From IMG/VR virus record IMGVR_UViG_3300047509_000062, positions 1 to 63,440 of that record: a stretch of DNA of 63,440 nt. One strand, 5' to 3'. The notes under the pieces were generated by a model. It had not been told where the DNA came from. It worked only from the letters and a program-made list of their open reading frames with translations, and searched no databases. Positions 31,470 through 49,425 of the stretch are shown one piece after another (positions within the stretch are counted from its first letter, which is position 1; each line of letters opens with the position of its first letter). This stretch comes from a virus. The position numbers and the translations under genes are program-made.

Positions 31470-32579
31470 ATGCCAGGTCCGTTGAGTGGTCCGGGGATTG
31501 GCCTGCAAACCCCGCAGAACCTCTATCCTTCCCAGCTCTATAATGCGCCAGCCGACGATCCGTCGAACCTTATCACGCTCACAGGCGGCGATGCAGTCGT
31601 GCTTCCAGCAGGCAACTGGTTTGTCGAAGCTGGCAGCATAGCTGTTCTTCAGTATTATGACCCGATTACAAACACCTGGTCTGGCTTTGAATCGGGCCGA
31701 AGCCCTCACATGTACGTCAAAAGTGATGGCTTTAATGTCCGCCTTGCCAATCTGACCGGGTGCCCTGTTGCCTCAATCGTGGTGGCGGGTGGATCGTCCT
31801 ATGTGCAGGCGACTACGACCGTCACGCCTTCGTCCGGCAATTCCACATGGCAGCCGATCGTGGGCGGGATGCTCTCGGTCGTGTCCATGTCGGCAAACGG
31901 CGGCAACTACGGTGTAGCACCTCTGGTATTCATTCCGCCGCCTCCGTCTCCGGGCGTCCCTGCTACGGCCATTGCTACACTATCGAGCGGGACGATCTCA
32001 GGCGTCACCCTGACCAATGTAGGAGCTGGCTACACGTCAGTCCCTACCCCGGTCATTGTGCCTCACCCGTTCGACCCGAACCTGAACGCAGGCATCACGC
32101 AGGCGACCGTGGTCATGGCGCTCAACGCCAGCACGACCTTGGCGGGCGCGATCTCTGCGGTCCTGTGTACGAACCCAGGTGTTCCCACAGCCACGCTCCC
32201 AACCCTTACCATCGCAGGGGCTGGAACTTCAGCCTCTGTGGTCTGCGTGACGCTCTCGACGGTCCTGACGGCTACGGTTTCGGCAGGTGCAGGATACACC
32301 AATCCGTCCGACCTGATCGTATTCGGCGGGCAGCCGGCAGGAACGCCGGCTTACACCAACCCGGCAATCCAGATGACCGGATATCGTCCGCGGAATGCGT
32401 CCATTGGCATAACTGCCGGTGCCACAACCACGACAGTTGGTGCGGTGTACGACAGCGGCTTGTTCGCTGGAACCGGAAACGGCGTCATTCTTGGACTCGC
32501 AACCCCTACCACAGTTGCTGGCGTCACCATCACGCAGGGCACTACGACGGCAACGGTAAAAATTCAGCCGGCGCCCTAA
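31470..32579 (+). CDS. Beta-repeat virion protein (head decoration or fibre), 369 aa
   Basis: The N-terminal ~110 residues (LQTPQNLYPSQLYNAPADDP; FVEAGSIAVLQYYDPITN) are followed by repeats of a Gly/Thr-rich beta module: ATLSSGTISGVTLTNVGAGY, TSVPTPVIV, then AGAGYTNPSDLIVFGG. The same G-x-GYT-x-P module appears in three other virion proteins of this phage. Twelve bases after the capsid gene, so probably a decoration protein. Confidence 0.7.
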   Translation: MPGPLSGPGIGLQTPQNLYPSQLYNAPADDPSNLITLTGGDAVVLPAGNWFVEAGSIAVLQYYDPITNTWSGFESGRSPHMYVKSDGFNVRLANLTGCPVASIVVAGGSSYVQATTTVTPSSGNSTWQPIVGGMLSVVSMSANGGNYGVAPLVFIPPPPSPGVPATAIATLSSGTISGVTLTNVGAGYTSVPTPVIVPHPFDPNLNAGITQATVVMALNASTTLAGAISAVLCTNPGVPTATLPTLTIAGAGTSASVVCVTLSTVLTATVSAGAGYTNPSDLIVFGGQPAGTPAYTNPAIQMTGYRPRNASIGITAGATTTTVGAVYDSGLFAGTGNGVILGLATPTTVAGVTITQGTTTATVKIQPAP

Positions 32580-32655
32580 TAGCCGGATGATGGCGGAGTT
32601 TTCATCGGCAGGAGTGTATCGCTTGCCGCTCCTGTAAAAAGCAGGAACGGTAAAG

Positions 32656-33378
32656 TTGCTCGCAAAATACCTCACGCAGACCGAACAACTACTGCAACTC
32701 CCGCAGGCGCCGACCACGCTTTACGGCACGGTCGCGCTTACCTCGTGGATCAACACGGCTCGGGGCCAACTCGCCGGGGAAAGCGAGTGCATCCGAGCAC
32801 TCGGGCTTCTGACGCTTGCGGCGAACACCCAGAGCTATCCATTCACGAGCATTTCAATCTCGACGGTTGGGGTGCAGGGCGTCCTCAACGTCCGCATGGC
32901 AACGATTCCGGTGACGAATGGAATAGCCCGTCTCGATACATGGCCGTGGGAGTATTTCAACACCTACTATATCCCACAAATATTAGCTCCGACAGGCACA
33001 CCTACCATCTGGTCTCAATACTCTCAGGGTGTAAACGGAACGGTTTTTTTCAGCCCGATCCCTGCCAGCGTCTCAACGGTAACATTCGACACGGTTTGCT
33101 ATCCGATTGACCTTGTGGACGATTCCACTACCGAGGCGATCCCGTTCCCGTGGACGGATGCTATTTGCTACTATGCGGCATATCTGGCGTTTCTCTCGGC
33201 GCAGAGCGCGAACAGACAGGCCGATGCGCTGCGAATGTACGAACTCTATAAGGAATTCGTGAAGCGTGCTCGACTGATGTCAACGGCGAGCGTTCTTCCA
33301 TACCAGTACGAGCAATCGGGCGATATTGTTTCTCCTGCATCGGCTACCAAGCCTCAGCAGCAAGCGGCTGGTGCGTGA
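32656..33378 (+). CDS. Connector/tail-tube-like protein, paralogue 1 (TTG start)
   Basis: 240 aa. Hallmarks shared by all four tandem copies: SWINTARGQLAGESECIRAL near residue 30, SYPFTSISIS, a WPWEYFNTYY centre and EAIPFPWTDAICYYAAYLAF near residue 160. The layout resembles podovirus head-to-tail connector / tail-tube adaptor proteins (inference from size, fold pattern and position). TTG at 32656 has AGGA about 8 nt upstream; a 76-bp gap precedes it. Confidence 0.75.
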   Translation: MLAKYLTQTEQLLQLPQAPTTLYGTVALTSWINTARGQLAGESECIRALGLLTLAANTQSYPFTSISISTVGVQGVLNVRMATIPVTNGIARLDTWPWEYFNTYYIPQILAPTGTPTIWSQYSQGVNGTVFFSPIPASVSTVTFDTVCYPIDLVDDSTTEAIPFPWTDAICYYAAYLAFLSAQSANRQADALRMYELYKEFVKRARLMSTASVLPYQYEQSGDIVSPASATKPQQQAAGA

Positions 33379-34097
33379 TGCTCTATTCATACCAGAAAGA
33401 CTGCCAGCAAATCCTTGCCGATCTCAAGCAGCAGATCGTAAATCCTGGTATTCTCACGTCATTCATCAATAAGGCGCGTGGTCAGATTGCGGCGGAGGGC
33501 CAATGCGTGCGCGTCATGGGTACGCTCATAACTCTCGGCAACGTCCAGACTTATCCATTTTCGAATATCACGGTCTCATCCGTAAGCGGCGTGTCATCGG
33601 TTCTCAATGTCCGCATGATTTCCGCGTCTAACGGTAGCGGCGGTCAATCGTTCCTGAATTTCTGGCCGTGGGAATGGTTCAACAGGTATTTTCTCTGCGC
33701 TACCACGATTCCGGTTGGCACCCCTATTCAATGGACGCAGTACGCTCAGGGCCAACTTGGGAGCCTGTATCTCAATCCAATTCCCATGAGCAACACGACG
33801 CTATCTCTCGACACCGCATGTCTGCCTATTGCGTTGGTGGATGACACGACCGTTGAGGCCATTCCCTATCCGTGGACAGATGCAGTGCCGTTCTACGCGC
33901 TGTATTTCAGCTATATGTCCACGCAGCGGCAGGAAGAAGCGGCGTTCATGTACCAGCGCTATCAGGAATTTGCGGCTCGAGCCCGCATGTTCTCGACGCC
34001 GGGCGTTCTGCCCTATCAGCATCCTCAGTACCCAACGCCTCCGTCTCCAGTTCCTCCACCGGCTCAACCGCAAGCGGCATTCACGGGTCGGCAATGA
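33378..34097 (+). CDS. Connector/tail-tube-like protein, paralogue 2
   Basis: 239 aa. Begins in the stop codon of paralogue 1 (TGATG). SFINKARGQIAAEGQCVRVM, TYPFSNITVS, WPWEWFNRYFL and EAIPYPWTDAVPFYALYFSY align with the other copies. Ends with a Pro/Gln tail (PPSPVPPPAQPQ). Confidence 0.75.
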   Translation: MLYSYQKDCQQILADLKQQIVNPGILTSFINKARGQIAAEGQCVRVMGTLITLGNVQTYPFSNITVSSVSGVSSVLNVRMISASNGSGGQSFLNFWPWEWFNRYFLCATTIPVGTPIQWTQYAQGQLGSLYLNPIPMSNTTLSLDTACLPIALVDDTTVEAIPYPWTDAVPFYALYFSYMSTQRQEEAAFMYQRYQEFAARARMFSTPGVLPYQHPQYPTPPSPVPPPAQPQAAFTGRQ

Positions 34098-34819
34098 CGA
34101 ACCTGTTTGATTACATGCAGAACGTCGAACGCCTTGTTGGAGACATGCGGCAGCAACTCGTCAACACAGGCGATATTCAGGTCTATATCAACACCGCTCG
34201 CAAGCAGGTGGCCGGCGAGGGTGAATGCGTGCGGGTGCTTGGCACTCTCGCACTCACTCAGGGCGTGAATAGCTATCCGTTCTCGGCTATCAATGTGTCG
34301 GGTACTGCCGGTGTGCAAGGGCCATACAATGCCCGCATGGTTTTGATTGCGGTAGCCAGCGGGCAGACGCTAATCAAAAACGACCCGTGGGAATGGTTTG
34401 TTCTCTACCATCTTAACAATCCGGTCCCGACACAATCAATCCCTACGTCATGGTCTCAATTCGGGCAGGGTGTAAACGGGTCTCTCTACTTCTCCAATAT
34501 TCCTGATACCAATTACACGGCAACGGTGGATACGTCCTGTATGCCGGTCAATCTGACAGACGATACGACTGCCGAAGCGATACCGTACCCTTGGACGGAC
34601 GCAGTGCCATATTTTGCCGCGTATCTGGCCTATCTGGAAAACCAGCGTGGCGACGATGCGCAGAGAATGTACGCTCTCTATGAGATGTTCACGACTAGAG
34701 CGCGCAAAATGTCCACGTCTGCCGTTCTGCCTCATCATTTCGAGCAGCAGCCGAACGTCACGCGGCCCAATCAGCTTGGTCAGATAAGCCGCAAACCTCC
34801 TGCGCAGGCGGTAGGTTGA
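34094..34819 (+). CDS. Connector/tail-tube-like protein, paralogue 3
   Basis: 241 aa. ATGA overlap with copy 2. VYINTARKQVAGEGECVRVL, SYPFSAINVSG, DPWEWFVLYHL and EAIPYPWTDAVPYFAAYLAY mark the family. Ends with RKPPAQAVG. Confidence 0.75.
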   Translation: MTNLFDYMQNVERLVGDMRQQLVNTGDIQVYINTARKQVAGEGECVRVLGTLALTQGVNSYPFSAINVSGTAGVQGPYNARMVLIAVASGQTLIKNDPWEWFVLYHLNNPVPTQSIPTSWSQFGQGVNGSLYFSNIPDTNYTATVDTSCMPVNLTDDTTAEAIPYPWTDAVPYFAAYLAYLENQRGDDAQRMYALYEMFTTRARKMSTSAVLPHHFEQQPNVTRPNQLGQISRKPPAQAVG

Positions 34820-34820
34820 G

Positions 34821-35813
34821 ATGTTGAACGAATATCTCCAAATGACGCAGCGACTTCTCCGCGACAAAAAACAGGAGCTGTTGGACCCTGCGTCGTTGAT
34901 GGTCTATATCAATCGCGCTCGACGCGAGATCGCGCAGCGCACTCAATGCGTGCGGTCTCTCACGCCGATTTCAGGGCAGATCGTTACCGTCTCCGTGACC
35001 AATCCGGGTAGTGGATATACGGCACCGACCGTCGTCATCACGCCGCCGGATTTTCCAAGCGGAACGCTGCCGTATCCTAACGGAAAGCAGGCGACGGCGA
35101 TTGCGACAGTGAGTGCTGGAACAATCTCAGCCATCAACATTCAATTCGGTGGATATGGCTACTATCAACCGCAGATCACGATAACGGATTCGACTGGCAC
35201 GGGCGCAACAGCTACTCCGAATATGTCGTTCATCAACCAGCTTTTGCAGGGGCAGGAGGTCTATCCGTTCAGCCTCGTGAATTTGAGCGCCAATCCGGGT
35301 ATGCTCGCGGTTTACAAGGTGATTAGTGTGAGCATACTGTTTAGTAATTATCGTTATTCATTGCCGATGTACAGTTTCTCAGTTTATCAGGCACGCATAA
35401 GACAATTTGCGCAAGGCACTTATCAATGGATTCCGACGTTTGGTACTCAGTATGGGGTTGGGACTTCTGGATCGTTCGCGATGTATCCTCTCCCAAATGC
35501 CGCTTACCAAATGGAATGGGACTGTTTATGTGTGCCCGCCAATCTCAAAACCGATACTGATACGGAAGTAATACCATCGCCGTGGACTGACACTGTGCCA
35601 TTCTATGCGTGTTTTTTGGCGATGTTGGAGCTACAGAACCATAATTCTGCCCGGTCATTCTTGGAGATATTTGAGAAGGAGTTACACGTTAGTTCTGCCG
35701 GAGCGATGCCTTCTAGGGCTTCAAATCCTTACGGCAGATGGGCTATCCCACTACTAGCTGGGATGGGGCTTGTTCAGATGTTGATGCACTGCTCTTATGG
35801 TGTCGTGATATGA
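34821..35813 (+). CDS. Connector/tail-tube-like protein, paralogue 4 with inserted beta module
   Basis: 330 aa. VYINRARREIAQRTQCVRSL aligns with the other copies. Then ~90 residues of the G-x-GYT-x-P module (VSVTNPGSGYTAPTVVITPP; FGGYGYYQPQITITD) are inserted before YPFSLVNLS, where the family alignment resumes through VIPSPWTDTVPFYACFLAML. The C-terminus overlaps the opposing HNH gene by 71 bp and ends unlike the siblings, suggesting its end was changed when that gene arrived. Confidence 0.75.
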   Translation: MLNEYLQMTQRLLRDKKQELLDPASLMVYINRARREIAQRTQCVRSLTPISGQIVTVSVTNPGSGYTAPTVVITPPDFPSGTLPYPNGKQATAIATVSAGTISAINIQFGGYGYYQPQITITDSTGTGATATPNMSFINQLLQGQEVYPFSLVNLSANPGMLAVYKVISVSILFSNYRYSLPMYSFSVYQARIRQFAQGTYQWIPTFGTQYGVGTSGSFAMYPLPNAAYQMEWDCLCVPANLKTDTDTEVIPSPWTDTVPFYACFLAMLELQNHNSARSFLEIFEKELHVSSAGAMPSRASNPYGRWAIPLLAGMGLVQMLMHCSYGVVI

Positions 35814-36534
35814 CCCTATGCTTCAACAGCAATGAGGCAATGAGATACATATCGTCATCTGTGCCGGTGTTTTTCATTGCATTTACCGCCCATAGGACAA
35901 AACGGCAGTTGGATTGCACATATCCGAGCATGGGCTCAATCTTATCGATGCTTGGAGAAAACATGCTAGGGCCACTTCGGTATTCTGTCTTAAACGAAAT
36001 GCCGGTAAGTGAGCATCGTCCTGTCCATACTGACTTGGCCCATGCCGCTGTCAGATCAAATGTGATACCGTCTTTCTTAGAGCGGGCCTTGGCTCCAGCC
36101 AAAAGGGCGTGCCATGGATAACGCTTTCTTCGCATCTGTGCATTCCTTCTTATATCGGTACAGCGGTCGGACCTGTGTCTCTCGTGGCGCACCCTGTCTC
36201 TATCCTTGTAACTATCTATGTGTTTCAGTCTCATCCTTTTGGCTTTCGCCAAACATTCCGTCCGGTGTGTCTGGTAATGATGCCGACTCGCGCACTTCCG
36301 AGAACACGACTTGGCTTGAACAGCTCGTGGAAAGAACGTCTCCCCACAGAAACAGCACTCTCTTTCAATCAGTTGCCATGTTTTTGGTATGTGCTGGCGT
36401 CCTGCGTTGTTATTTTCCCAATAGGCCGTGGAGCATTTTGGGGAGCATAACACATTGCCTTTGCGGCATGGCTGAAACGTGCCTCCGCAATACAAACATG
36501 GAGACGGCAACGGCTTTATTCTCGCCTTATACAT
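35743..36534 (-). CDS. HNH homing-type endonuclease with zinc fingers, 263 aa
   Basis: Three CxxC-type sites (CLYCGGTF...CSPKC, CCFCGETF...CSRKC) at the N-terminus. The C-terminal half has RCSLTGISFKTEYR, PSIDKIEPMLGYVQSNCRFV and NAMKN, the pattern of large zinc-containing HNH nucleases. Runs against the surrounding virion genes and is more AT-rich than they are, so an acquired mobile gene is likely. Confidence 0.8.
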   Translation of the reverse strand: MYKARIKPLPSPCLYCGGTFQPCRKGNVLCSPKCSTAYWENNNAGRQHIPKTWQLIERECCFCGETFFPRAVQAKSCSRKCASRHHYQTHRTECLAKAKRMRLKHIDSYKDRDRVRHERHRSDRCTDIRRNAQMRRKRYPWHALLAGAKARSKKDGITFDLTAAWAKSVWTGRCSLTGISFKTEYRSGPSMFSPSIDKIEPMLGYVQSNCRFVLWAVNAMKNTGTDDDMYLIASLLLKHRVISRHHKSSASTSEQAPSQLVVG

Positions 36535-36563
36535 CGCGGCATTTAGCCAATCATAGTGCCTAG

Positions 36564-38879
36564 ATGCAAGTCCAATCCACCATCAAAGCCGAACCACCAA
36601 ACGAGCAGCAGATCGCGCCTCGGGGAACGAACCCGATCATCTTCGATACGTTCGCCGGTCTCAACACGAACGCATCGAGGCCGGGGATTGCAGACGATGA
36701 ATGCTCGTGGATGGACGGCTTCATGCCGTTGGGGAAGAATAACCTTCGCACACTTCCCGGAGTTGGACCATCAATCTACACGTCTCCTGCGGGCGTGACG
36801 ATTGTATGCTTTGCGTTTGCGAATATCGGAACGGCGCCGGTTTGCATCGTGTTTCTTAGCGACGGCTCTATCGTACAGGTCAACATTCAGTCCGGGTTTG
36901 CGTTTCAGATTGCGGCGGCTGGAACGATTCTTTCACCATCGCAGCAGAATGTTGGCGTCAGTCAGTGGGGCAATCAGTTTATCCTGATCGTCGCCAATCA
37001 GACGAACGGCTATTTCATATGGAACGGAGGAGTGCTTTTCAGGGCCGGCACCATCGGGGCGCTCGTCAACGTCACCAACTCTGGCCTGAATTATACCAGC
37101 CAGCCAACATTTATCGTTGAGACTACGGGTGGCGGTTCGGGGGCCACATTCAATGCCATCCTCAACAATGACGTGATTCAGGAGATTGACGTAGGCTTGA
37201 CGGGCGGCGGTTACGGCATAAACGACTTCGTGAATCTCGTAATTCAGGGCGGCGGTTCCGACAATACAGCAAGAGCCACGGCTACGATTGGTCCGGGCGG
37301 CGGGATTCAGACAGTAGCGGTGCTCAATGGCGGCGGCGGATATGCGTTTGGCACGAGTGCGACGGCAGTAGGTGGAGGCGGAACCGGGGCTGAATTGCTG
37401 GTCATGGGATTAGTCCCTGACGGCGGGGCCAATAATATAATTCAGAGCATCACGGTTCTAAGCCCCGGAACTGGCTACACGTCGGCACCTACCATTCAAC
37501 TGCACAATGTCGGCAATCCGACCTCAACCGCAACTTTCGCCGTCAGCATATTCGAGGGCGTAATCACAGCCATCAACGTCACCGATCCCGGCACTGGATA
37601 TGTCACGCCTCCGACCGTGAGCCTCATTGGAGATGGCACGGGTGGGAGTTTCATCGTTCAAATCAATAGCTCGGGACAGATTACTGGAATTGTCGTCAAG
37701 GATGGTGGGCAGGGATACACGAAGGCGCTAGTAAAATTCTCCGGCGGTAATAACGCCGCGGAAGGAGATATCACGATCATGCCGTTCGGTATCCAAGGCA
37801 CATGGGCGGAGACCTATGTAAGCCGCGCATGGGTAGCGAACGGGAACAAGATTAGCTTTACGGCTGCGGACTCGTTGCAGGACTTCGCGACCTCGGATGG
37901 CGGAGGAACGATACAAGCAACGGATTCATTCCTTCGGAATAGTTACACCGTTCTCAGGCAGACGAACGGATTTCTGTATATCCTCGCGGATAGCTCCGAG
38001 AATTACATCTCTGGGGTGACAACGAGCGGTGTTCCTCCAACCACGACATTCAACAATCAGAACGCAGACCCGGAAGTAGGAACGTCGTGGCCGTACACGG
38101 TGCAGGTGTTCAACAGAAACATCCTGTTCGCCAATTCATTCGGCGTACATGTGAGCTACGGCGGCGCGGTGACTAAAATATCGGAGGACTTGGACGGCAT
38201 CTATAACACGGTGTTCAACTTCGGCGGCTTCATTCCAAGCTCTGCCAAGGCCATCATCTACGGCAAGCGCGTGTTCATGCTTCTGCTGCCTGTGGTGGAT
38301 ATTATCTCAGGACAGACGGTCAACAAGCTTTTCATGTGGAACGGCAAGAAATGGTTTTCGTCTCAACAAGACGTGCCACTTACGTTCGTAGCCTCGCAAG
38401 AATTGAATTCCGTGTTGACAGCGTGGGGAACAGACGGAACGCATATCTATCCGCTATTCCAGAAGCCATCGACCGGCTTCAACAAGGTCGTGCAGTCAAA
38501 GCTTTGGGACAAGCCGAACGGCTATATGTTCAACAAGACCGATAGCCGGTTGTGGGGGCTGTTCTATTTCCGCAGTCTGGCAGGTTCCAGCCTTAGCATC
38601 AGTGTTGACAATGAGAACGGCGCATCGTCCAGCCCGATAGGGGTTGGTGGACCTCTTGTCGGATGGGTGAATGCGCTGGCAGTCGTGGTGACATGGGCAA
38701 ACGCTATCGGAAACACAAATGTCCTTTGGACGAATTCAGGCGTGGGGATTGTGGTCATGCAGCCGACTGCGGTAGGGCAGCAAGGCGCGTTGGTAGGTCT
38801 AACGCTTACGACAAACGCAGCGGACATGACGGTGATATCTCTCGCCGTTGAGGCCGATAATTGGAACTACCGAGGATAA
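36564..38879 (+). CDS. Large tail protein (tail tubular protein B-like) with beta-module array
   Basis: 771 aa. The N-terminus (NPIIFDTFAGLNTNASRPGI; CSWMDGFMPLGKNNLRTLPG) and the C-terminal ~400 residues (RNILFANSFGVHVSYGGAVT; KLFMWNGKKWFSSQQDVPLT) fit the beta-propeller tail proteins of T7/P22-type podoviruses. Residues ~165-405 are about six copies of the G-x-GYT-x-P module (LSPGTGYTSAPTIQLHN; VTDPGTGYVTPPTVSLIG), an insertion relative to those families. Position after the connector genes supports a nozzle role. Confidence 0.8.
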   Translation: MQVQSTIKAEPPNEQQIAPRGTNPIIFDTFAGLNTNASRPGIADDECSWMDGFMPLGKNNLRTLPGVGPSIYTSPAGVTIVCFAFANIGTAPVCIVFLSDGSIVQVNIQSGFAFQIAAAGTILSPSQQNVGVSQWGNQFILIVANQTNGYFIWNGGVLFRAGTIGALVNVTNSGLNYTSQPTFIVETTGGGSGATFNAILNNDVIQEIDVGLTGGGYGINDFVNLVIQGGGSDNTARATATIGPGGGIQTVAVLNGGGGYAFGTSATAVGGGGTGAELLVMGLVPDGGANNIIQSITVLSPGTGYTSAPTIQLHNVGNPTSTATFAVSIFEGVITAINVTDPGTGYVTPPTVSLIGDGTGGSFIVQINSSGQITGIVVKDGGQGYTKALVKFSGGNNAAEGDITIMPFGIQGTWAETYVSRAWVANGNKISFTAADSLQDFATSDGGGTIQATDSFLRNSYTVLRQTNGFLYILADSSENYISGVTTSGVPPTTTFNNQNADPEVGTSWPYTVQVFNRNILFANSFGVHVSYGGAVTKISEDLDGIYNTVFNFGGFIPSSAKAIIYGKRVFMLLLPVVDIISGQTVNKLFMWNGKKWFSSQQDVPLTFVASQELNSVLTAWGTDGTHIYPLFQKPSTGFNKVVQSKLWDKPNGYMFNKTDSRLWGLFYFRSLAGSSLSISVDNENGASSSPIGVGGPLVGWVNALAVVVTWANAIGNTNVLWTNSGVGIVVMQPTAVGQQGALVGLTLTTNAADMTVISLAVEADNWNYRG

Positions 38880-38880
38880 C

Positions 38881-39780
38881 ATGGCCTTACCCGTCACGTT
38901 CGCAAGCCTGTCAACAGTCACGCTCTCGCAACTGGATCAAAATTTCAATGCGCTTGGAGCATTGACGCCAATACCGTGCGCGGTCACGGGGACGAACACT
39001 CTGGCGCTCGCTCCCGCTGCAAATACCCCTACCGTAGCAGTCCTCGCCAACTACATGCAATTCACTGGCGTTGCGGCGAACACAAACTCAGGTGCGGTTA
39101 CGGCTAATGTGAATTCTCTTGGCCCTCTGAATGTGTATGTCGATACGCCGTCTGGGCCTGTAGCGGTATCATCCGGGCAGATCGTCCAGAACACATTATT
39201 TACGCTGATGTATGATTCGACGCTCAATACCGGAGCGGGCGGGTTTCATCTGCTCAGTGCCGTGGTTGTGGGGTCATTCCTTCCCCTTGGCGGCGGAACG
39301 CTCTCAGGCGCGTTGGTTGGCACAACTATCACGCTATCCGGACCTATCAAATCGGCAGGGGCGACAATTTCCGGCACGTCCACGCTCGCTAGCGTCAACG
39401 CGAGCGGGAATATCACTGGTTCTGGGTTGATCGGAACATCGGCCACGGTCACGACCTCCACGGTATCCGGCCTCGGAAAGCTAGGGTCATATCAGGTGGC
39501 GAGCGGAGCCGTGATAACCCGTATGCTCATGGCGAGCGTGTCTCTCGCATACGGAGCGGTGGCAGCGAACTCGAGCAGCGATCAGACAATGACGGTGGCC
39601 GGGTGCAGCATCGGGGATGTTGTCATTTCGTCTCCACCTTCAGCGCCTACGGTTGGATTGGCCTTCAACGCCTTTGTGAGCGGGGCAAATATCGTCACGA
39701 TACGAATGCTGAATGTTACGTCCGTAACTCTTGTGCCCCCGTCCGGTACTTACGCGGCGGCGGTCATCGGAAACACCTGA
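38881..39780 (+). CDS. Tail fibre-like protein, 299 aa
   Basis: MALPVTFASLSTVTLSQLDQ is followed by beta-rich Gly/Thr/Ser sequence and a fibre-type repeat (FLPLGGGTLSGALVGTTITL, SGPIKSAGATISG). Ends in a compact beta segment. Starts one base after the tail-protein stop. Probably part of the tail appendage. Confidence 0.75.
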   Translation: MALPVTFASLSTVTLSQLDQNFNALGALTPIPCAVTGTNTLALAPAANTPTVAVLANYMQFTGVAANTNSGAVTANVNSLGPLNVYVDTPSGPVAVSSGQIVQNTLFTLMYDSTLNTGAGGFHLLSAVVVGSFLPLGGGTLSGALVGTTITLSGPIKSAGATISGTSTLASVNASGNITGSGLIGTSATVTTSTVSGLGKLGSYQVASGAVITRMLMASVSLAYGAVAANSSSDQTMTVAGCSIGDVVISSPPSAPTVGLAFNAFVSGANIVTIRMLNVTSVTLVPPSGTYAAAVIGNT

Positions 39781-39781
39781 T

Positions 39782-40120
39782 ATGCCCATCGCTTCGCTCT
39801 ATAACATCCCGGAGACAGACGAGACGCTGTTGCAGTGGTCGTTCGCACACATGGACCATCACCGCACCACGATCGAAGCGATACAGAGGCAGAAGAATAT
39901 CAATCTACCGCTCTACCCATTGGACCCGATGAATTTGCAAGACATGGGAACGTGGGGATATCAGCATCAAACAATGCACAATGACGCAAATGCCGCGCTA
40001 GGCGTGGTTGGGCAAGACCTTGTTGATGTAGATTGGCAGAATGCCGAACAGCGTGCGGTGTGGATCATGCTTCAAGCCCAAGAGCATTTCCAGTGGGCAC
40101 TCAAGACGGGGATAGGATGA
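39782..40120 (+). CDS. Hypothetical virion protein, 112 aa
   Basis: LYNIPETDETLLQWSFAHMD, then INLPLYPLDPMNLQDMGTWG and NAEQRAVWIMLQAQEHFQWA. Soluble and helical, found in tail modules of related podophages as I recall. The start at 39782 is one base after the preceding stop. Function unknown. Confidence 0.65.
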   Translation: MPIASLYNIPETDETLLQWSFAHMDHHRTTIEAIQRQKNINLPLYPLDPMNLQDMGTWGYQHQTMHNDANAALGVVGQDLVDVDWQNAEQRAVWIMLQAQEHFQWALKTGIG

Positions 40121-40590
40121 TGGCTCTGGCACAGATACAGGACGAAACGGACGAAGGCGGGGTACTCTCCCATCGGTTTATTCCCCCGGACTTCGACGCA
40201 ATCGGTATCTGGCTTCTGTCCCGTCTCAGGGCTCGATGGACGTGGATGGCGGAGCGTACCGCTTTTGGCTGGCTCAAGGGCGTGATGGACAGCGGCGATT
40301 ATATGTTCCTTCGCAATGGCGGCGGAGTGATTCTCGCGGACAGGACAAACGACCCGCTGGACCCGAGGCCAAAGGTCAGGGTCATCTTCTGCGTCTCGCA
40401 AGATGGACAGTTGCCGGTCACGGTCAATCTCTATGCCGACGTGAAGCGGTGGGCTCTTGGGATGGGCGCAAAGGAAATCGTACTCGGGGAATTCACGGAC
40501 ATACCGCGCCCGATGATTCAGGAAGTCTTCGGAGCGCCAAAAATCAGAACCCGCAACGTGGCCTTCTGGGACATGACAAGTGACAGTTGA
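40117..40590 (+). CDS. Hypothetical protein, 157 aa
   Basis: AFGWLKGVMDSGDYMFLRNG, VRVIFCVSQDGQLPVTVNLY, then KEIVLGEFTDIPRPMIQEVF. An alpha/beta layout that may be a remote GNAT-like fold paired with the next gene. Starts inside the previous stop (ATGATG). Confidence 0.6.
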   Translation: MMALAQIQDETDEGGVLSHRFIPPDFDAIGIWLLSRLRARWTWMAERTAFGWLKGVMDSGDYMFLRNGGGVILADRTNDPLDPRPKVRVIFCVSQDGQLPVTVNLYADVKRWALGMGAKEIVLGEFTDIPRPMIQEVFGAPKIRTRNVAFWDMTSDS

Positions 40591-41335
40591 GCGCATCTTC
40601 GACGCGGATAGGCTGAACGAGGTCTTGAACGATCCCGAAGTCAGGCCGGACGTTGCCGATTTGACGCTCGGCAACCTGGACGTTCGAGGATCAGTCGAGA
40701 ATCCCGATAATGTTCTTCTCATGGGAGAGCATGGCGGGGTGATGTTCTTCAAGATTATGGCCGGCTGTTATGAGTGCCACTCGCAGGTCAGAAAATCAGG
40801 CCGCGGGCAATGGGCAATCGACATGGTTTTGGCATGTGCCCGCCATATGTTCACGAAAACCGATTGCTTTGAAATCACGACGCGTATTCCTCGCGAGCAT
40901 TTGGGCGCAAGAGGTTTGGCGATCAAAGCAGGTATGTCGCACGAATTCAGCGTTGACGACGGATGTGTCTGGCGTGGGCAGAAAATGCCGATGGACATCT
41001 ACAGCTTCAGGATTCAGGACTGGATCAAGGCTGCGGAGGATGTAGAGGACACCGGGCGCTGGTTTCATCGCAGGCTGAATGAAGAAGCGATACGTCTTGG
41101 CATCACCGATCATCCGCACGAAAACGATGACACCCATAACCGCTACGTAGGGGCATCGGTCGAGATGGCGATGGCCGGACAGGTGCAGAAATCAACACTC
41201 TGGTACAATCGCTGGGCCGTATGCGCGCGTCATCCGATCATCCACCTGATTTCCGTCGATCCTCCATGCGTGAAGATGGATATCGGTCTTCTGACAATCC
41301 GTGACGGAGATATCGAGGTTCAATTATGCGCGTGA
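40580..41335 (+). CDS. GNAT-like virion-module protein, 251 aa
   Basis: NVLLMGEHGGVMFFKIMAGC, YECHSQVRKSGRGQWAIDM and TRIPREHLGARGLAIKAGMS follow the strand-helix order of GNAT acetyltransferases. Phages such as T7 carry a comparable protein (gp13-like) in this position. The acetyl-CoA motif (Q/RxxGxG/A) is only roughly present (RKSGRGQW), so activity is uncertain. Confidence 0.65.
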   Translation: MTVERIFDADRLNEVLNDPEVRPDVADLTLGNLDVRGSVENPDNVLLMGEHGGVMFFKIMAGCYECHSQVRKSGRGQWAIDMVLACARHMFTKTDCFEITTRIPREHLGARGLAIKAGMSHEFSVDDGCVWRGQKMPMDIYSFRIQDWIKAAEDVEDTGRWFHRRLNEEAIRLGITDHPHENDDTHNRYVGASVEMAMAGQVQKSTLWYNRWAVCARHPIIHLISVDPPCVKMDIGLLTIRDGDIEVQLCA

Positions 41336-42618
41336 TGCAGAGAGACATTCTCGGGCTTGAACCGGATCGCGGGCACGAAAATCCGTTGCTGTGTTCGTTC
41401 GGTATCACCGAAGCGTTGGGCGCGAGCATTGCGTCTTTGCTTGTCAGTTCTGGTGTAGGAACGGCAGCGGCGGCGGGGGGCACTGCGGCAGCGGCAGGGG
41501 GAGGGCTTATCGGGGCTGGGGCGACTACGGCGCTCGGGACCGGATTGGCTGGTGGCATCGAAGGCGCGGCGCTCGGGGCAGGCGAAGCGGCTTTGACGGG
41601 TGGAAACCCGCTCACGGCAGCGGGCATCGGATTCGGCACTGGCGGGCTTGTCAGTGGACTGGCGGGGCCTGTTTCTGGCGCATTGGGCCTTGGCGGCACG
41701 GATGCAGCGGGAGGGGCAGCAGGTGGCGCGGCTGGGGGTGCTTCGGCACCCGCGGCAGGGGCCTCCACAGCCATTCCGGCTGGCGCTACGAGCATTGCTC
41801 CCACGGCAACGGCTCCGGTCGCCAGCGGGGCCATAGGGGCTGCTCCTGCGGGCGCTGGGGCGGCTGGTATCGCTCCCGGACTTGGGGCTATTGCACCCCC
41901 GACCGATCCCACGGCTACGGGCGTGCTTTCGTCTCTCGGTGGAGGGGCTTCTTCGCCGGCAGTTCCCGGATTGCCGGGACAGGCTGTAGCCCCTGGTACG
42001 GCACCGGCTGCAACGGCAACTCCGTCCGTGGCGCAAACAGCGGCCGCTGCTGCAAAGCCTACGTCTGGAGACGCATTCCTGAGCAATCCATCTCTGAGCT
42101 CGTTCGGTGATGTTCTGAAATCAAATCCGGGGGCTGTCCTAAGCGCGTTGGGTCTCGGCTACGATATCATGAATCAGGGCAATGTGCAGGGCCTTGGTAC
42201 GCTCACGAACGAAGCAGGCCAGCTTCAGAAACAAGGGCAGGCTCTCAGCTCCTACGTCAATAACAATACCCTCCCTGCCGGCGCTCAGGCCGCAGTCAAT
42301 CAGGCAAAAGAAGCGGCGAAGGCTCAGATACGGGCCAAGTATGGTCAACTCGGAATGTCGGGCTCGACGGCGGAGACGCAAGACCTCGCAAATTCGGACG
42401 TTCAGGCCGTCGAAGCGCAATACCAAATTGCCTCACAGCTGCTCAATTCCGGCATTCAGGAATCTGGTCTCGCATCTGAATTGCTGGCGCGCATCGTCGG
42501 TATCAATCAGGCTCAGGATGCCGCAACCGGAGCAGCGATAGGAAACTTTGCGTCAAGCCTTGGCAGCAGTGCAAACGACGGTGGTATTCGGCTCTATATG
42601 AATCCTACAGGCCACTAG
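41326..42618 (+). CDS. Ala/Gly-rich internal virion (ejection) protein, 430 aa
   Basis: Residues ~30-250 are extremely Ala/Gly/Pro-rich (GTAAAAGGTAAAAGGGLIGA, TTALGTGLAGGIEG), like glycine-zipper membrane-inserting segments. The C-terminal 180 residues are helical (NQAKEAAKAQIRAKYGQLGM), ending IRLYMNPTGH. Fits the gp14-like ejection proteins that form a channel in the host envelope. Confidence 0.7.
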   Translation: MRVMQRDILGLEPDRGHENPLLCSFGITEALGASIASLLVSSGVGTAAAAGGTAAAAGGGLIGAGATTALGTGLAGGIEGAALGAGEAALTGGNPLTAAGIGFGTGGLVSGLAGPVSGALGLGGTDAAGGAAGGAAGGASAPAAGASTAIPAGATSIAPTATAPVASGAIGAAPAGAGAAGIAPGLGAIAPPTDPTATGVLSSLGGGASSPAVPGLPGQAVAPGTAPAATATPSVAQTAAAAAKPTSGDAFLSNPSLSSFGDVLKSNPGAVLSALGLGYDIMNQGNVQGLGTLTNEAGQLQKQGQALSSYVNNNTLPAGAQAAVNQAKEAAKAQIRAKYGQLGMSGSTAETQDLANSDVQAVEAQYQIASQLLNSGIQESGLASELLARIVGINQAQDAATGAAIGNFASSLGSSANDGGIRLYMNPTGH

Positions 42619-42619
42619 A

Positions 42620-44209
42620 ATGGCAACCGCTCAAAACGTCGTGTCTGATATGTCGGGCGGCAATCCTGCTGGGCCGAACATCTCGACGTTGCAGGGCGCG
42701 ACCAATCGTTATCAGGCGATCGAGAAGAAACAGGAAACCGATCCGGCTCTCAAGGGCGCAGAAAATGAATTCGAGACCAGCTCTGCCGAAGCCAAGCAGA
42801 CCATCTCCGACGTTCAGCAGAAGCTGAAAGGCGTTGACCACGATGCAATGCTCAAGCCGTGGGATGCTCAGGCAGAGGGGGCTAAATACACCACGCCGAT
42901 GATGCAGCAATTCGGCTCAGTCGCCTCTGCATTTGCGCTCATTGCCTCTGCCTTCACCCATCAGCCGCTCATCAATGGTTTGAACGGCGCCGCGGAAGCC
43001 ATGAAGGCGATACAGAAAGGCGATTCCGACGCATACAACCGCGCCTACGATGCCTTCAAGGAGAATTCCGATCTCGCGATCAAGCGTCACGAGATGGAAA
43101 TGCAGGACTGGAAGGTAGCCGCCGATCTTGCTATCGAGAAGCCAGCCCTTGCCGAAGCGACGTACAAGATGCTGTCGGCAAAATACGGCGATGAGAAAGC
43201 GGCGGCGCTATCAGAAGCCGGTCTCATTAAAGACCGCGAGCAGCTTGCAATCAGCCGCTCCGAACTTGGCCTGAAATACAAGGAATTGCAGACCAAGATG
43301 GTGCCGTTCGACATATTCCATCAGTCGATCAAGGAATTCGAGCAACAGAACAAGCGCAAGCCGAATGCGCAGGAAACGGCGGGCCTCTGGGGCCAAGCCA
43401 ATATGTCAGCACAGCTATCCTCCATGACACCGGAGGACCGTCAGTCGATGGGCGCAATGGCAGCAAGTGGAATGCCGTTAAGCCAAGTCGTTCCTGGGTG
43501 GGGAGGGGCTGCTATTCAGCAGCGTCAACAGGCGCGGCACGACGCGATAGAACTCATCCGCAAACAAACCCCCGGCATGTCCGCGACTGAAGCCGGTCAG
43601 GAGTTGGCAAATAGGACCGTCGAGTATCAGAGCGGCAAGCGTTCGGTCGGACAACTTTTCACGATGCTAGGTGCCACTCGGCAAGCCGTGTCTCAGCTTG
43701 ATTACAACATCGAGCAGACCAAAGAGGACATGAAGAAACTGCCGTCCAGCGATATTTCACCGATCATCAACGCGATTGCGCGCGGTGAGCAGAAATGGAC
43801 GGGTAACCCGGCGTACTCAAGTCTGTTCTATCACATGGCCGCGACTGCCACTGAATCGGCTCGCATTCTGTCTGGCGGTCAGGCATCTGTGGCACAATTA
43901 CATGCGGGAGCTCAGGCAGAGGCCCAACAGTGGGCCAATGTCAACATGACGCGGTCGTCTTTCTTGGACCCGAAGAACGGCGTTGCAAAAGCCATGACGG
44001 AAGAAGGCCATTTCCGCCTCAAGACATTCGAGGACGCGATTGGCTATCAGTTGAAGTCCACGACAAGCGGTGGAATGTCGGGCGGCAATCAGGCTCAGGA
44101 GCAATATACCGTTGGGCAGGTTCTAACTGGATCGGATGGCAAGCAGTATCGGGTCAAGAGTATTGATCCTAACGACCCGTCAGACCCTGACGTGGAGCCA
44201 GTGCAATGA
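42620..44209 (+). CDS. Internal virion protein, 529 aa
   Basis: Almost wholly helical and charged (NEFETSSAEAKQTISDVQQK; AFKENSDLAIKRHEMEMQDW), ending in a small beta domain with YTVGQVLTGSDGKQYRVKSI. Size and place between two other ejection-type proteins suggest a gp15-like core or ejection protein. Confidence 0.65.
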   Translation: MATAQNVVSDMSGGNPAGPNISTLQGATNRYQAIEKKQETDPALKGAENEFETSSAEAKQTISDVQQKLKGVDHDAMLKPWDAQAEGAKYTTPMMQQFGSVASAFALIASAFTHQPLINGLNGAAEAMKAIQKGDSDAYNRAYDAFKENSDLAIKRHEMEMQDWKVAADLAIEKPALAEATYKMLSAKYGDEKAAALSEAGLIKDREQLAISRSELGLKYKELQTKMVPFDIFHQSIKEFEQQNKRKPNAQETAGLWGQANMSAQLSSMTPEDRQSMGAMAASGMPLSQVVPGWGGAAIQQRQQARHDAIELIRKQTPGMSATEAGQELANRTVEYQSGKRSVGQLFTMLGATRQAVSQLDYNIEQTKEDMKKLPSSDISPIINAIARGEQKWTGNPAYSSLFYHMAATATESARILSGGQASVAQLHAGAQAEAQQWANVNMTRSSFLDPKNGVAKAMTEEGHFRLKTFEDAIGYQLKSTTSGGMSGGNQAQEQYTVGQVLTGSDGKQYRVKSIDPNDPSDPDVEPVQ

Positions 44210-45633
44210 AATTGTCCGAAATCGGCGGGGCTCCGCAATCAGATCAAAAGACAATGAAGCTGTCTCAGGTCGGGCAGCAGGATTCTCCAAAGTTATCATC
44301 CACCGCCGATTCCGTAGGGCAGGACATGCTCAACACGTTCGGCGGAGAGATAGAGGGCGCGTGGAACAAGCTCAGAACCGATTTCGAAACGACGATGCCG
44401 AACAAGAATTACATTAACGAGGATTTCTGGAACAAACTGAAGGACGATTATCGCCAGACGGTAGCGGCTGGAAGCCTGCCTATTGATGCGTTCAACCTTG
44501 TAATTTCTCCGATAGCTGGAGCGATCAAAGCGGGGCCTGTCAAAGCGGTGGCAGCCGGGGAGCGTGCAGCTATTGGCGCATTGCCTGGTATCGACAAAAG
44601 TAAACTGCCAAGTCAATCCGATACTGAAAATCAGCTCATGGGCGATTTGTCTGCAATAGCCCCCGAAAAAGGCGTGTCATTGGCAGCGCCAGCATCCGCC
44701 GCTGTGCCAACCGTGGATGCTCTGAAAACCGCAGCCCGCAAGGCGTACACGATTGCCGACAGCTCTGGAATGCAGATTGAGCCTCATGCGATCAAGAGCC
44801 TTCATGGCACCATCGCGGCAGACTTGGCGAAGAAAGGCTTTCACGAAAAGCTGATGCCAAAGACGGATGTTGCCGTAAATGAAATCAAGGCAATGGCTGA
44901 AGACAAGAACCCGAAATCTCTTCAAGACATTGATGTGCTCAGGCGTATTGCTGGTCACGCGGCAGGAGCTAGTGAAAAGGCAGACAGGACGATGGCGCGC
45001 GTCGTCAAGGATCATATTGACGACTTCGTTGACAATCTTGGACCGCAACATCTGACGGGCACGAAAGACAACGCGGCGATTGACGCTCTGCATACTGCTC
45101 GTGACGCATGGAAGCGTGCCAGCAAGGGCGAAATCATCGAAGGCGCTATTGAGAAGGCAAAAACGAACGCGAGCCAATTCAGCCAATCCGGGGTCGAGAA
45201 TGCCTTGCGGGTGCAATTCCGCAAGATAGTCAACAACGACCGGGCCATGTCGCGGTTTACTCCCGAGGAACGTGAAGCCATCAAACAGGTCGCGAAGGGC
45301 GGTCCTATTACGAACGCGCTTCGCATGATCGGAAAACTGGCTCCGCACGGGATTGTGTCTCTCGGTCTCAGCAGTGGTGGAGGATATGCGGTTGGCGGCC
45401 CGGTCGGAATGTTGGCCGTTCCTGCTATCGGAGAGGCTGGCAGATTGGCTGCAACGGCCATGACGGAGAGAAACGCTCGTCTTGCATCAGAATTGGTGCG
45501 CAGAGGTGCCAAGCCGCAAGTGAGCGCCGCGAGTGGCGCGCAGAAGATTTATCCGGCAGCTTCGGCAGCAAACGTCCTGCAACCGCGCTCTGCCCGTGAT
45601 GTAGTTGGTCAGCTTGCGGGAGCTACTCCATGA
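44206..45633 (+). CDS. Internal virion/ejection protein, 475 aa
   Basis: Opens with MKLSEIGGAPQSDQKTMKLS, has a helical core with DLSAIAPEKGVSLAAPA and SLQDIDVLRRIAGHAAGASE, and near the end a hydrophobic segment (GGYAVGGPVGMLAVPAIGEA). This pattern is common in the third ejection gene of podophages of rhizobia. No transglycosylase motif seen. Confidence 0.65.
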   Translation: MKLSEIGGAPQSDQKTMKLSQVGQQDSPKLSSTADSVGQDMLNTFGGEIEGAWNKLRTDFETTMPNKNYINEDFWNKLKDDYRQTVAAGSLPIDAFNLVISPIAGAIKAGPVKAVAAGERAAIGALPGIDKSKLPSQSDTENQLMGDLSAIAPEKGVSLAAPASAAVPTVDALKTAARKAYTIADSSGMQIEPHAIKSLHGTIAADLAKKGFHEKLMPKTDVAVNEIKAMAEDKNPKSLQDIDVLRRIAGHAAGASEKADRTMARVVKDHIDDFVDNLGPQHLTGTKDNAAIDALHTARDAWKRASKGEIIEGAIEKAKTNASQFSQSGVENALRVQFRKIVNNDRAMSRFTPEEREAIKQVAKGGPITNALRMIGKLAPHGIVSLGLSSGGGYAVGGPVGMLAVPAIGEAGRLAATAMTERNARLASELVRRGAKPQVSAASGAQKIYPAASAANVLQPRSARDVVGQLAGATP

Positions 45634-45869
45634 CCAAGAAATCCGCTCTCACTGGCTCGTGCGCCAAACTCGCGCAGAAATTAATCGATCAGGCGCTTGA
45701 GGAAGGCGTGACGATAGAGGACCGGCTTGAAGTCCTAAAAATCGCTGGCGGGTTCTGCTTGGGGAGCGAGAAGATCAAAATGAAAACTCCGGATGATGAC
45801 AACGACGCTCCGTCGTTTGCCAATTTCCGCAACCGCGTCAACGGAACACCGAGGGAGACATCACAATGA
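45630..45869 (+). CDS. Hypothetical protein, 79 aa
   Basis: TGSCAKLAQKLIDQALEEGV, then TIEDRLEVLKIAGGFCLGSE and an acidic tail. ATGA overlaps connect it to the ejection gene and the next membrane protein. Function unknown. Confidence 0.6.
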   Translation: MTKKSALTGSCAKLAQKLIDQALEEGVTIEDRLEVLKIAGGFCLGSEKIKMKTPDDDNDAPSFANFRNRVNGTPRETSQ

Positions 45870-46156
45870 CGGCCAAATCGTTCAAGATCGTTGGGGAAGA
45901 AGAGGCTCAGGAGCTTCCTCCAAACCCGAAGATCAACACGGACACCGAGAAGGCCATGCAAATCCTGATGCTGTCTCTCGTGGTCGTGGGCAAGCGGTTT
46001 ATCACGGCTCTATCTCACCTGTTCACGGCGGCTGCTCTGCTGTCGGCGTGGCTGTTGTGGCGGTCGGTTCTCCCCTCGCCGACCGTCACTCAGCTTATCG
46101 GGGTGACGCTGTTCGGGGCATTCGTGCTTGCGATCGAATGGGTCAGGAGAAAATAG
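45866..46156 (+). CDS. Membrane protein with two helices, 96 aa
   Basis: A charged N-terminus (FKIVGEEEAQELPPNPKINT), then ALSHLFTAAALLSAWLLWRS and TQLIGVTLFGAFVLAIEWVR. Two transmembrane segments with a short loop and a basic end. Could act in ejection, or as a holin-like protein; not adjacent to the endolysin. Confidence 0.65.
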   Translation: MTAKSFKIVGEEEAQELPPNPKINTDTEKAMQILMLSLVVVGKRFITALSHLFTAAALLSAWLLWRSVLPSPTVTQLIGVTLFGAFVLAIEWVRRK

Positions 46157-46157
46157 T

Positions 46158-49100
46158 ATGTTCCGGGGCTGGGCGTTTCTTGCCGGATTGTTGTGCCTGC
46201 TCGTAAGCCTCGCGGCTGATGGGCAAGTGGCTCAGACGGGGGATGTCACTATAGGGCATCCTCCGGTTTGGGAATTTAACGGCGTCATCGGCGATGCAGG
46301 CCCGCCCACAAATGGCATTCTGACCGGCGTAGGTGTCACAAACAATTCCGTCACCGGCTTCTGCCAGAACTCTCACCCCATCACGCAGCCATATGTAGAA
46401 TTATGCTTCGGCGTCACGGATTCCATCGGTCAGATCACGCTACAGGGCGTGAACGAAGCTACACCGGGAATGCAGCTCTGCATCAATGGAACATGCTATC
46501 CGTTGCCTCCTGCTGGGGGTGGCGGGGCAATTCTCAATGCTCGCCAGATCGTAACCGGCACGACGGATTCCGGCATCACTGCGGACGGCATTATCTTCTG
46601 GGACAGTGCCTCGACCGGAGCGAAGACAGAAACTCTCTACACCTGCAACGCGGGCACAAAAGGCTACAGCATAGTCGTCGCGGACGAGATCGGAACGGCA
46701 GGGACGTATCCTATCAATATAGTAGCCGCTGGAGGAAATACTATCTTCGGCGTTGCTCAGGCTCCAGTGCAGGCCAATTTCGGCAGTACGAAAGTCATTT
46801 GTGACGGCGTATCGAATTGGCAGGCGGTTCCTACGCCTCTCAATGCGGTATTCAACTGGATCAATATACAGGCTCCGGTTTACGGGGCGGTAAGTGACGA
46901 AGACGATTCCACGACCTGCACATGGACGGCAAGCGTCAAATCCATTACCTGCCCGAACAAGACATTCTCCGCCGCTAACGTCGGGCAAACGCTGGCAATC
47001 GACTACGCCGGTTCATCCTTCCATGCGTTCGTGACGAAATTCACGGGCTTCACAAGCACGCATGTCATGGCACTACAGGATGCGCCTACGACAGGCGGCA
47101 CGCTCACGCATGTCACAGCGTTCGGGAAACCTGCCGTGCAAGGGACCGGCTACACCATCGGGGCTACGCTCAGTCTCGTATGCGGGGCAGGGTGTGCGCA
47201 GATCAATCAGGCGCAAGGCGTCGTCAATGCGATAACGGCTGTCAGTGCTACGGACGCGGTTGCCGGTTCTGGTGGGACAGCATCCGCAACATGCGTTCTG
47301 ACCGGGACGACCGGAACAGCACTCGCGGGACAACTATTCCAAGCCAATGTGACGCTCAACGGCAGCGGCAACATGGGTGCCGGTTCTGTCATCAATTCCA
47401 TATCGCGACCCGGTGTTTACACCGCAGGTATGACCGATATTACCCAAGAGCCGGTTACGGCTGCATCCAACTGCGGCGCGCTCACGGGCGTAAAGCTCAA
47501 TGTTGTGATGGGCGTTTATAACGTCTATGCGAAAACAAGTACCGGCTTCTATTCCGCTCTGACATGCAGTGGGTCAACGGCCTATTCCACTACGTCCAGT
47601 GATTCCGGCACCGGGGCAACCGTCAACTGTAACACAATGCCTGCTGCGGCGCGTTGGGGAACGGATAACACGGCGGCATTTACGGCTGCCATGACGACGC
47701 AGAACACGTTTTCCGTTGCTCACACTCCGAACTGCATCTATCTCCCGGCGGGAAAGTATCTCACCAAACCGTTGAATGTGGCGGTGAACGGGTATGGCTG
47801 TGTTCTTGGAGATGCACAGTTTCAATCGACAATCTTTCTGATCCCAAACACGGCTGGCGATTTCTTTCAGGCTGTCGATTGCGGGAATAACGGCGCGCTG
47901 CAAAATCAGGGCGGCACATTCACCTATTCCGACGATGCGTTTCCCAACAAGGCCGGAAGCCGGTTTGCGGGGTTCACTATCATCGGCATGAGATCGTCCA
48001 GTACGATCCAGAACGGGCTTATGTTCGCCGGTCGATGCCAATGGGTGACGATAGACAACTATCAGACGTACTATGTGCGAGGACGGAGCATTGGCGTTGA
48101 GGGTGATGCAAGCGGTTCTCCATTCGGGAGTTTGCTGGAAACGGCCATCTCGAATACACGATTTGAGAACGGCGGCGATCCGGGAACGGTCGGTGCGAGC
48201 CCACAAGGCACGAACGGTATTCCGATGGTCGATCTGGCGGCTGTTGGGTCAACATCAGGGGCAAACAATCTGCACATTTGGGCCATGCGTATATTCCATC
48301 CGTTCGGTCCCGGCGTCGTGATCCGGTCATGCGCTGCGGCTGACAATGCACATCTCATTGTTCTGACGGATTCGCACTTTGAGCAGTCCGGGCAGGACGG
48401 GACTACGGCAACCGGCGACTTGCTTCAACTCGGGGACAATAACTGCACCGGCGAGACATTTCCGACCATAACCGGGGGAACGGTCGCCGGCACTGCCAAT
48501 CTGTCCGTTGCCGGTGTTACCGCAGCCAACAACACATTCAACAATATGATCGCTGGCTATGCGGCGATACATCTTGAGGGTATTACCGGAACCCCCGGAT
48601 CGACAAACGCAAACAATAACTTCAGCGGCAATATCGTAGGCACTGGGTCATCTCTCGGGGCCGGTATAAAACAGGATGCAGGCCGCAATAACTCATACAC
48701 GTTTTCAGAAAACGCCCCGTCCGACTACGGCATCATCTTTCAATCGACGCCGAACGCGAGTCAGAACGGCGCTAATAATTTCTATAACGGACTTGGTTTG
48801 GGAACGGAAGCCAACGTCAATGCCAATATCGAAGCGGCACTGCAGCCCACAGGAAACAATCCGGTTTCCTATCCAACATATACGACCTCGCCGGGACATC
48901 CTCTCGGGCAGTTTTATATCCAGACCGTTGGCGTAGCGAACGCCGCTGGCGGAAACAATTCTATGGTTGGATCAGGTGTTGGAGGATCGGACCTCGGTGC
49001 GAACTACGCAGTAGTCGGAACTAATATGGATTTCTACGCGGCTGGAGAATACTCGTCAGCGGCAAGTCCTGGCAGCCTTGTTTTCAACTGGAAGTTTGGT

Positions 49101-49415
49101 GGCCCGGTGCTTCTATCAACTACAGTTTCAACCCTGAAGGTAAACGCTACCGCAGTTCCGTGGAATATCGAAGGTCATTGCACATTCCTGACAATAGGGA
49201 CGAGTGCCACCGCATATTGCTGGGGAATGCTTAGGATTACAAATGCCGCAGGCGTATTGCTGAATGTGTTTCTGACGCCAACCGCAATCCCCATCACCGG
49301 ACTCGACACCACGACCATAGGCGGAACGGTGGAGGGCTTCACGACGCAGTGGGGCACATTTGCCACCGGGGATTCCATCATCGCCGACTATCTTGTGTGG
49401 TCGGTTCCAAACTGA
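46158..49415 (+). CDS. Tail spike-like protein with N-terminal signal peptide, 1085 aa
   Basis: MFRGWAFLAGLLCLLVSLAA is a clear Sec-type signal. The mature part is a long beta-rich protein with a right-handed-helix look: HTPNCIYLPAGKYLTKPLNV, where an active-site-like spike domain begins, and IDNYQTYYVRGRSIGVEGDA. It is rich in cysteine (about 20), unusual for a cytoplasmically assembled phage spike and consistent with export. One G-x-GYT module lies near residue 330. Two bases after the previous stop. Confidence 0.75.
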   Translation: MFRGWAFLAGLLCLLVSLAADGQVAQTGDVTIGHPPVWEFNGVIGDAGPPTNGILTGVGVTNNSVTGFCQNSHPITQPYVELCFGVTDSIGQITLQGVNEATPGMQLCINGTCYPLPPAGGGGAILNARQIVTGTTDSGITADGIIFWDSASTGAKTETLYTCNAGTKGYSIVVADEIGTAGTYPINIVAAGGNTIFGVAQAPVQANFGSTKVICDGVSNWQAVPTPLNAVFNWINIQAPVYGAVSDEDDSTTCTWTASVKSITCPNKTFSAANVGQTLAIDYAGSSFHAFVTKFTGFTSTHVMALQDAPTTGGTLTHVTAFGKPAVQGTGYTIGATLSLVCGAGCAQINQAQGVVNAITAVSATDAVAGSGGTASATCVLTGTTGTALAGQLFQANVTLNGSGNMGAGSVINSISRPGVYTAGMTDITQEPVTAASNCGALTGVKLNVVMGVYNVYAKTSTGFYSALTCSGSTAYSTTSSDSGTGATVNCNTMPAAARWGTDNTAAFTAAMTTQNTFSVAHTPNCIYLPAGKYLTKPLNVAVNGYGCVLGDAQFQSTIFLIPNTAGDFFQAVDCGNNGALQNQGGTFTYSDDAFPNKAGSRFAGFTIIGMRSSSTIQNGLMFAGRCQWVTIDNYQTYYVRGRSIGVEGDASGSPFGSLLETAISNTRFENGGDPGTVGASPQGTNGIPMVDLAAVGSTSGANNLHIWAMRIFHPFGPGVVIRSCAAADNAHLIVLTDSHFEQSGQDGTTATGDLLQLGDNNCTGETFPTITGGTVAGTANLSVAGVTAANNTFNNMIAGYAAIHLEGITGTPGSTNANNNFSGNIVGTGSSLGAGIKQDAGRNNSYTFSENAPSDYGIIFQSTPNASQNGANNFYNGLGLGTEANVNANIEAALQPTGNNPVSYPTYTTSPGHPLGQFYIQTVGVANAAGGNNSMVGSGVGGSDLGANYAVVGTNMDFYAAGEYSSAASPGSLVFNWKFGGPVLLSTTVSTLKVNATAVPWNIEGHCTFLTIGTSATAYCWGMLRITNAAGVLLNVFLTPTAIPITGLDTTTIGGTVEGFTTQWGTFATGDSIIADYLVWSVPN

Positions 49416-49425
49416 GGCAAGCGAC

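Follow-up and report, generated by a model that had tools for sequence, protein, structure and literature searches.

A two-repeat beta domain shared by nozzle-like, connector and capsid-side proteins of a short-tailed phage lineage, a probable relative of T4 gp18 domain I

Three virion proteins encoded in the IMG/VR virus record IMGVR_UViG_3300047509_000062 carry sets of repeats which, as judged from profile comparisons, are homologous to one another. The unit that they share is a domain of ~80–95 residues composed of two ~40-amino-acid repeats, each with a G-x-G-Y turn, and is referred to below as the module. It is probably a relative of domain I of the T4 sheath protein gp18. We found no description of the module in the literature that we searched.

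The window analysed is the whole record, 63,440 bases in length. Its tail region is ordered portal-like gene (26984–28708), major capsid gene (30408–31457), O, C1–C4 and B, where the first two assignments derive from weak PHROG matches combined with gene order, and O, C1–C4 and B all lie on the plus strand. O (31470–32579) directly follows the major capsid gene and consists of ~100 N-terminal residues followed by two module domains, or four ~40-residue units (31863–32357, residues ~132–296), which were delimited by alignment and by the profiles of C4 and B. C1 (32656–33378), C2 (33375–34097) and C3 (34094–34819) are connector/ring paralogues without the module, while C4 (34821–35813) is a paralogue that contains one module domain (34968–35243, residues ~50–141) with two units and six predicted strands. 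The PHROGs matched by C1–C4 are phrog_10775 and phrog_399, whose annotations are tail and structural protein. B (36564–38879) resembles a tail hub or nozzle, with a putative beta-propeller body into which three module domains are inserted at 37041–37790, residues ~160–409, the six units themselves covering residues ~163–405; homologues lacking the insert at this exact site exist. When the weak model of whole B (pLDDT 54.3) was compared with solved structures, phage tail proteins ranked first (Z 12.2, 12.0 and 11.8), with generic propellers about equal, and the matches included tail proteins of Pan3, HRP29, P22, Pam1 and SU10. B may be a tail hub or nozzle of the P22 gp10/T7 gp12 type, but has three extra module domains. 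Relatives of B were not found in bacterial and archaeal genome contigs.

Several other features of the window were recorded. A run of sugar-phosphate genes at 18778–21498 encodes a class II aldolase (PF00596, E 4.6e-42), a pfkB kinase (PF00294, E 3.2e-12) and a transaldolase (PF00923, E 7e-32), and is followed by a TPR protein (21483–22910). Between C4 and B, a minus-strand ORF (35743–36534) with cysteine pairs gives a weak match to NinG (E 0.0075); C4 and B are 751 bases apart here, whereas about half of the relatives have no gap or almost none, and beyond 'NPYGR' C4 ends in a tail that differs from that of most relatives. The spike-like protein and the tail-region proteins that follow it (46158–52801) have hydrophobic N-termini resembling signal peptides (at 46158, ~49426 and 50816), which is odd for virion proteins. 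Just past a phage lysozyme gene (52803–53231) lies an HNH endonuclease with an AP2 domain (53624–54118; PF13392, PF00847).

For the repeat comparison, relatives of O, C4 and B were taken from viral contigs and aligned, giving for each protein a single insert or set of repeats. An HMM of the short motif collapsed to 19 columns and was replaced by whole-insert profiles. Compared by hhalign, the repeat sets scored 96.7% (C4 with B), 96.2% (C4 with O) and 97.6% (B with O), versus 0.1–2.0% for reversed profiles and 0.1–2.3% for the parent folds. Additionally, the profile of each set recovers, within the window, both of the other proteins. Motif counts were compared with 500 shuffles per protein: the long motif was found 7 times in B (0.14 expected) and as 4 overlapping matches in C4 (0.02 expected), counts reached by no shuffle of 500, and once in O (P 0.03). 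The four units of O comprise three recognisable G-x-[GN]-Y motifs and one that is degenerate. The initial annotation, made from this sequence alone, had proposed one beta domain shared among four virion proteins. The common domain is borne out for O, C4 and B by the cross-profile matches and by the 96–98% hhalign scores among them. The fourth proposed site, the protein at 46158–49415, was rejected: its motif count was at chance level (0 at 46158–49412, P = 1, 500 shuffles), it was unmatched by the O, C4 and B profiles even at E 10, and PHROGs gave no match there.

Could Gly/Tyr/Thr-rich beta repeats of this kind have arisen convergently, with no common descent? The repeats are short and of low complexity, and the motif count in O is modest, as convergence would allow, but we consider it very improbable. 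The profile matches pass both the reversed and the parent-fold controls, the two-unit domain is of the same size across proteins, and one set's profile reaches the others in different protein families and in phages only distantly related. The repeats are also not unrelated loops of their parent folds, the outcome that would have undone the earlier proposal, as insert-free nozzle and connector homologues align straight across the gap.

The repeat pattern described in that annotation is real in the three proteins, but a single motif corresponds to half a domain rather than to the unit itself. In 72 homologues of B, the spacer between the two halves of the protein measures 14–18, 87, 164–170 or 245–287 residues, with no intermediates. 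The nozzle set comprised 51 distinct genomes after removal of duplicate loci, and of these 15 have no nozzle domain, 1 has one, 10 have two and 25 have three. On the nozzle tree, copy number changes at least 9 times and presence or absence 4 times. The nozzle insert occupies a single clean site and varies in copy number.

In contrast to the nozzle, where copies vary from none to three, the connector copy is fixed: all 63 phages have one module-bearing connector and no more, and their 77 sibling connectors lack the module. The count is biased in that the module itself served to retrieve most of these loci; those retrieved through B (L001–L019) nevertheless agree. The bearer is the last connector in the row in 62 of the 63 genomes; in the exception, L079, an extra ORF overlapping the bearer was also scored as a connector. 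Across the 63 genomes, the gap at the insert site spans 94–99 residues in bearers (128 in two of them) versus 5–8 in siblings, and in the window it spans 95 residues in C4 versus 6 in C1–C3. Thus the earlier suggestion that the fourth connector had acquired an insertion absent from its three siblings holds up in the window and extends to the siblings in other genomes. In a tree of the connector body with the insert removed, the bearers fall on one side of a branch with support of 100/100. The C4 module averages 51% identity, compared with 56% for the parent body, and includes an invariant P-D...P-x-G-x-Q loop. Module-free connectors have multiplied separately across lineages (L015, L016, L023 and the window), with up to four beside the bearer; these extra copies may make a longer tail barrel.

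MW202753 and MW202825, two distantly related phages from Manatee Spring, bear on the order of these events. In both, the nozzle insert site holds two module domains, and the single connector lacks the module, that of MW202825 having no insert at all. Because the module is present in the nozzle and absent from the connector of these relatives, the C4 copy is an insertion and its absence is, most simply, the older state. At the position where C4 holds the module, the sole connector of MW202753 (L094:5117-5962) has an unrelated insert of ~68 residues, indicating that the site tolerates different inserts.

The same two outgroups are informative about O. The module is present in all 78 O matches among the loci, but MW202753 and MW202825 have behind the capsid gene a protein of 108–111 residues without modules, whose similarity to O is weak (E 2.9e-4 and 2.9e-3; hhalign E 6e-4) and confined to the N-terminal part. 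In addition, the C4 profile scores the nozzle domains of the distant phages at 34.7–42.4 bits versus 18.6 for the window nozzle, and the O profile scores them at 38.1–42.4 versus 20.6. The higher scores on the distant nozzles, together with the module-free counterpart of O, suggest that the nozzle was the source from which the connector and O received the module. We also considered, and rejected, ongoing exchange among the copies of one genome: scores within genomes are barely above those between genomes (90.5/87.4, 85.2/84.2 and 123.1/118.9), and the spread therefore looks old.

To characterize the fold, the isolated C4 domain (34944–35246, 57 relatives) was modelled with AlphaFold2, giving a pLDDT of 89.1 and six strands (13–20, 29–32, 51–57, 60–68, 78–81 and 89–94 of 101 residues) arranged as two A-B-C sets. 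Foldseek returned no PDB match for this domain at E ≤ 0.001; the PDB matches, Ig domains among them, all had E ≥ 1.6. It did match 22 predicted viral structures, including a protein of the P22 gp10 type as well as baseplate and fibre proteins of cyanophages. With a second structural aligner, the best five solved matches were all domain I of T4-type sheath proteins (gp18 residues 98–190), from T4 gp18 and a T4-type Klebsiella phage sheath, at Z 4.5–5.5 and 19–24% identity over 68–75 residues. The top match, T4 gp18 domain I, has a Z of 5.5 with 23% identity, which is below the aligner's safe level of 8, and the next unrelated row scored 2.3.

Sequence comparison points in the same direction. 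The profile–profile score of the module against gp18 domain I was 27.5–28.0, compared with a maximum of 17.6–19.0 in 200 column shuffles, and no Pfam family other than PF22639 (Gp18_dom_I) is matched by two or more of the 30 nozzle domains. The matches, in 2 of the 30, stay below the family's curated cut-off (best E 0.074), and PF22639 was not among the matches of the 57 connector domains. T4 domain I matches phrog_26741 (E 6.6e-5), as do the nozzle domains (E down to 2.7e-7). Given this moderate sequence evidence and the low Z, we call the module a probable relative of T4 gp18 domain I and not a member of PF22639. An Ig-like identity, as first proposed, is unsupported by Pfam families or by the Foldseek PDB matches: Ig-type Pfam families appeared only at chance level (Big_9 in 1 of 57 connector domains, E 0.12), and among solved structures the six-stranded T4 domain matches best. 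A sequence search of solved structures with the module, connector and nozzle gave no credible relative; matches to the alpha-glucosidase 5x7o (E 9e-5 with the whole sequence, 0.024 for the best stretch), to 1m9u and to a pyocin fibre were judged to be chance or unresolved.

Domain I of gp18 protrudes outwards from the T4 sheath, takes no part in contacts between sheath subunits, and binds the long tail fibres in their retracted state as well as the baseplate; the substitutions G106S, S175F and A178V block fibre retraction (PMC3004832). In a numbering of gp18 that leaves out the initial methionine, the G-S-N-Y turn has G106 as its first glycine, and the domain's second loop contains both S175 and A178. 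By sequence pattern, these mutated loops correspond to the loops that hold the conserved residues of the repeat here, though the mutant effects in T4 could arise through misfolding. By analogy, the module would be an independently folding, six-stranded docking knob on virion proteins, a reading that we give about an even chance. Inserted in loops or added at the ends of virion proteins, it would leave the parent fold intact; the lineage has 0–3 copies in tandem in the nozzle, one in a single stacked-ring-type connector and two in the capsid-side protein O. It would project from the particle, and its exposed turn loops would hold other virion parts, either tail spikes or fibres or a neighbouring ring, much as gp18 domain I holds the baseplate and, when retracted, the long tail fibres. 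The outward position, the ring stoichiometry and the docking are all presumed here. The invariant C4 copy may be a required docking site and the variable nozzle copies optional extras: a copy found in 63 of 63 genomes and conserved nearly as well as its body suits a fixed docking partner, and a number varying from none to three suits an optional extra.

Alternatively, the module might be an accessory adhesion domain whose weak binding to cell-surface polysaccharide aids adsorption, as proposed for phage Ig-like domains. Polysaccharide binding is a possible function, and adhesion has been published as a hypothesis for the extra domains of sheath proteins (PMC9230969). The occurrence of the module in several virion proteins, its variable copy number among relatives and its optional presence in the nozzle are consistent with such a role. 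However, the C4 copy, never absent and nearly as conserved as its parent, fits a structural partner better, no carbohydrate-binding family matched the module above chance, and the best solved relative is known for docking to proteins. We therefore regard adhesion as possible but rather unlikely. A brace that makes the short tail thicker and cements adjacent subunits together, with no contact to host or appendage, seems less probable again. The C4-type bearer adjoins the nozzle gene and is the sole connector never lost in the 63 genomes, and in crassvirus tails paralogous rings are stacked above a nozzle-like muzzle (PMC10172136). Against bracing, insert-free nozzles are common (15 of 51 distinct genomes), and the T4 domain makes no subunit–subunit contacts.

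The docking knob likened to gp18 domain I can be set beside other known systems. The T4 domain (PF22639) is also six-stranded, has a G-x-N-Y turn and is likewise inserted in a loop of another virion domain, as the clean gaps in connector and nozzle homologues indicate for the module. It differs in its single copy, its extra alpha helix and its location in a contractile sheath, whereas the module sits in short-tail connector, nozzle and head-side proteins. The G-x-G-Y repeats of T4-like cyanophages (PHROGs 460, 701, 708, 2885, 438, 5342 and others) match the module clearly and occur in several kinds of virion protein, but the proteins that carry them are baseplate, neck and fibre proteins of large myoviruses. 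All 30 nozzle domains match phrog_701 and phrog_2885 (best E 2e-13), and our literature search found no structure or function for this repeat. Promiscuous Ig-like accessory domains (Fraser et al. 2006, as cited in PMC9230969 and PMC10684548) are similarly small beta domains that have moved between virion proteins, although the module has no Ig-family match and is six-stranded and two-unit. Phi-crAss001 likewise has several paralogous connector/ring genes and a nozzle-like propeller protein, and the excerpts of that report (PMC10172136) describe its ring proteins without such a module. C1–C4 beside the nozzle recall these stacked rings, and their products may be stacked in the same manner.

Tentatively, and with slightly less than an even chance of being right, we propose a virion-domain family that Pfam does not model separately and that includes, or is sister to, gp18 domain I. 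Such a family would serve as a general docking or adhesion knob in myoviruses and short-tailed phages, and in one lineage would have passed from the nozzle to the adjacent connector and the capsid-side protein, with tail-tip copies changing in whole-domain steps. What had been an ill-defined repeat motif, frequent in virion proteins of cyanophages and unmatched by Pfam here, becomes a defined domain with a testable fold, tied to a T4 domain with known genetics. The presence of 0, 1, 2 or 3 copies at one nozzle site in related phages offers a natural experiment on such decorations, and the rule of one bearer per connector set provides a way to distinguish ring paralogues in phages known only from sequence.
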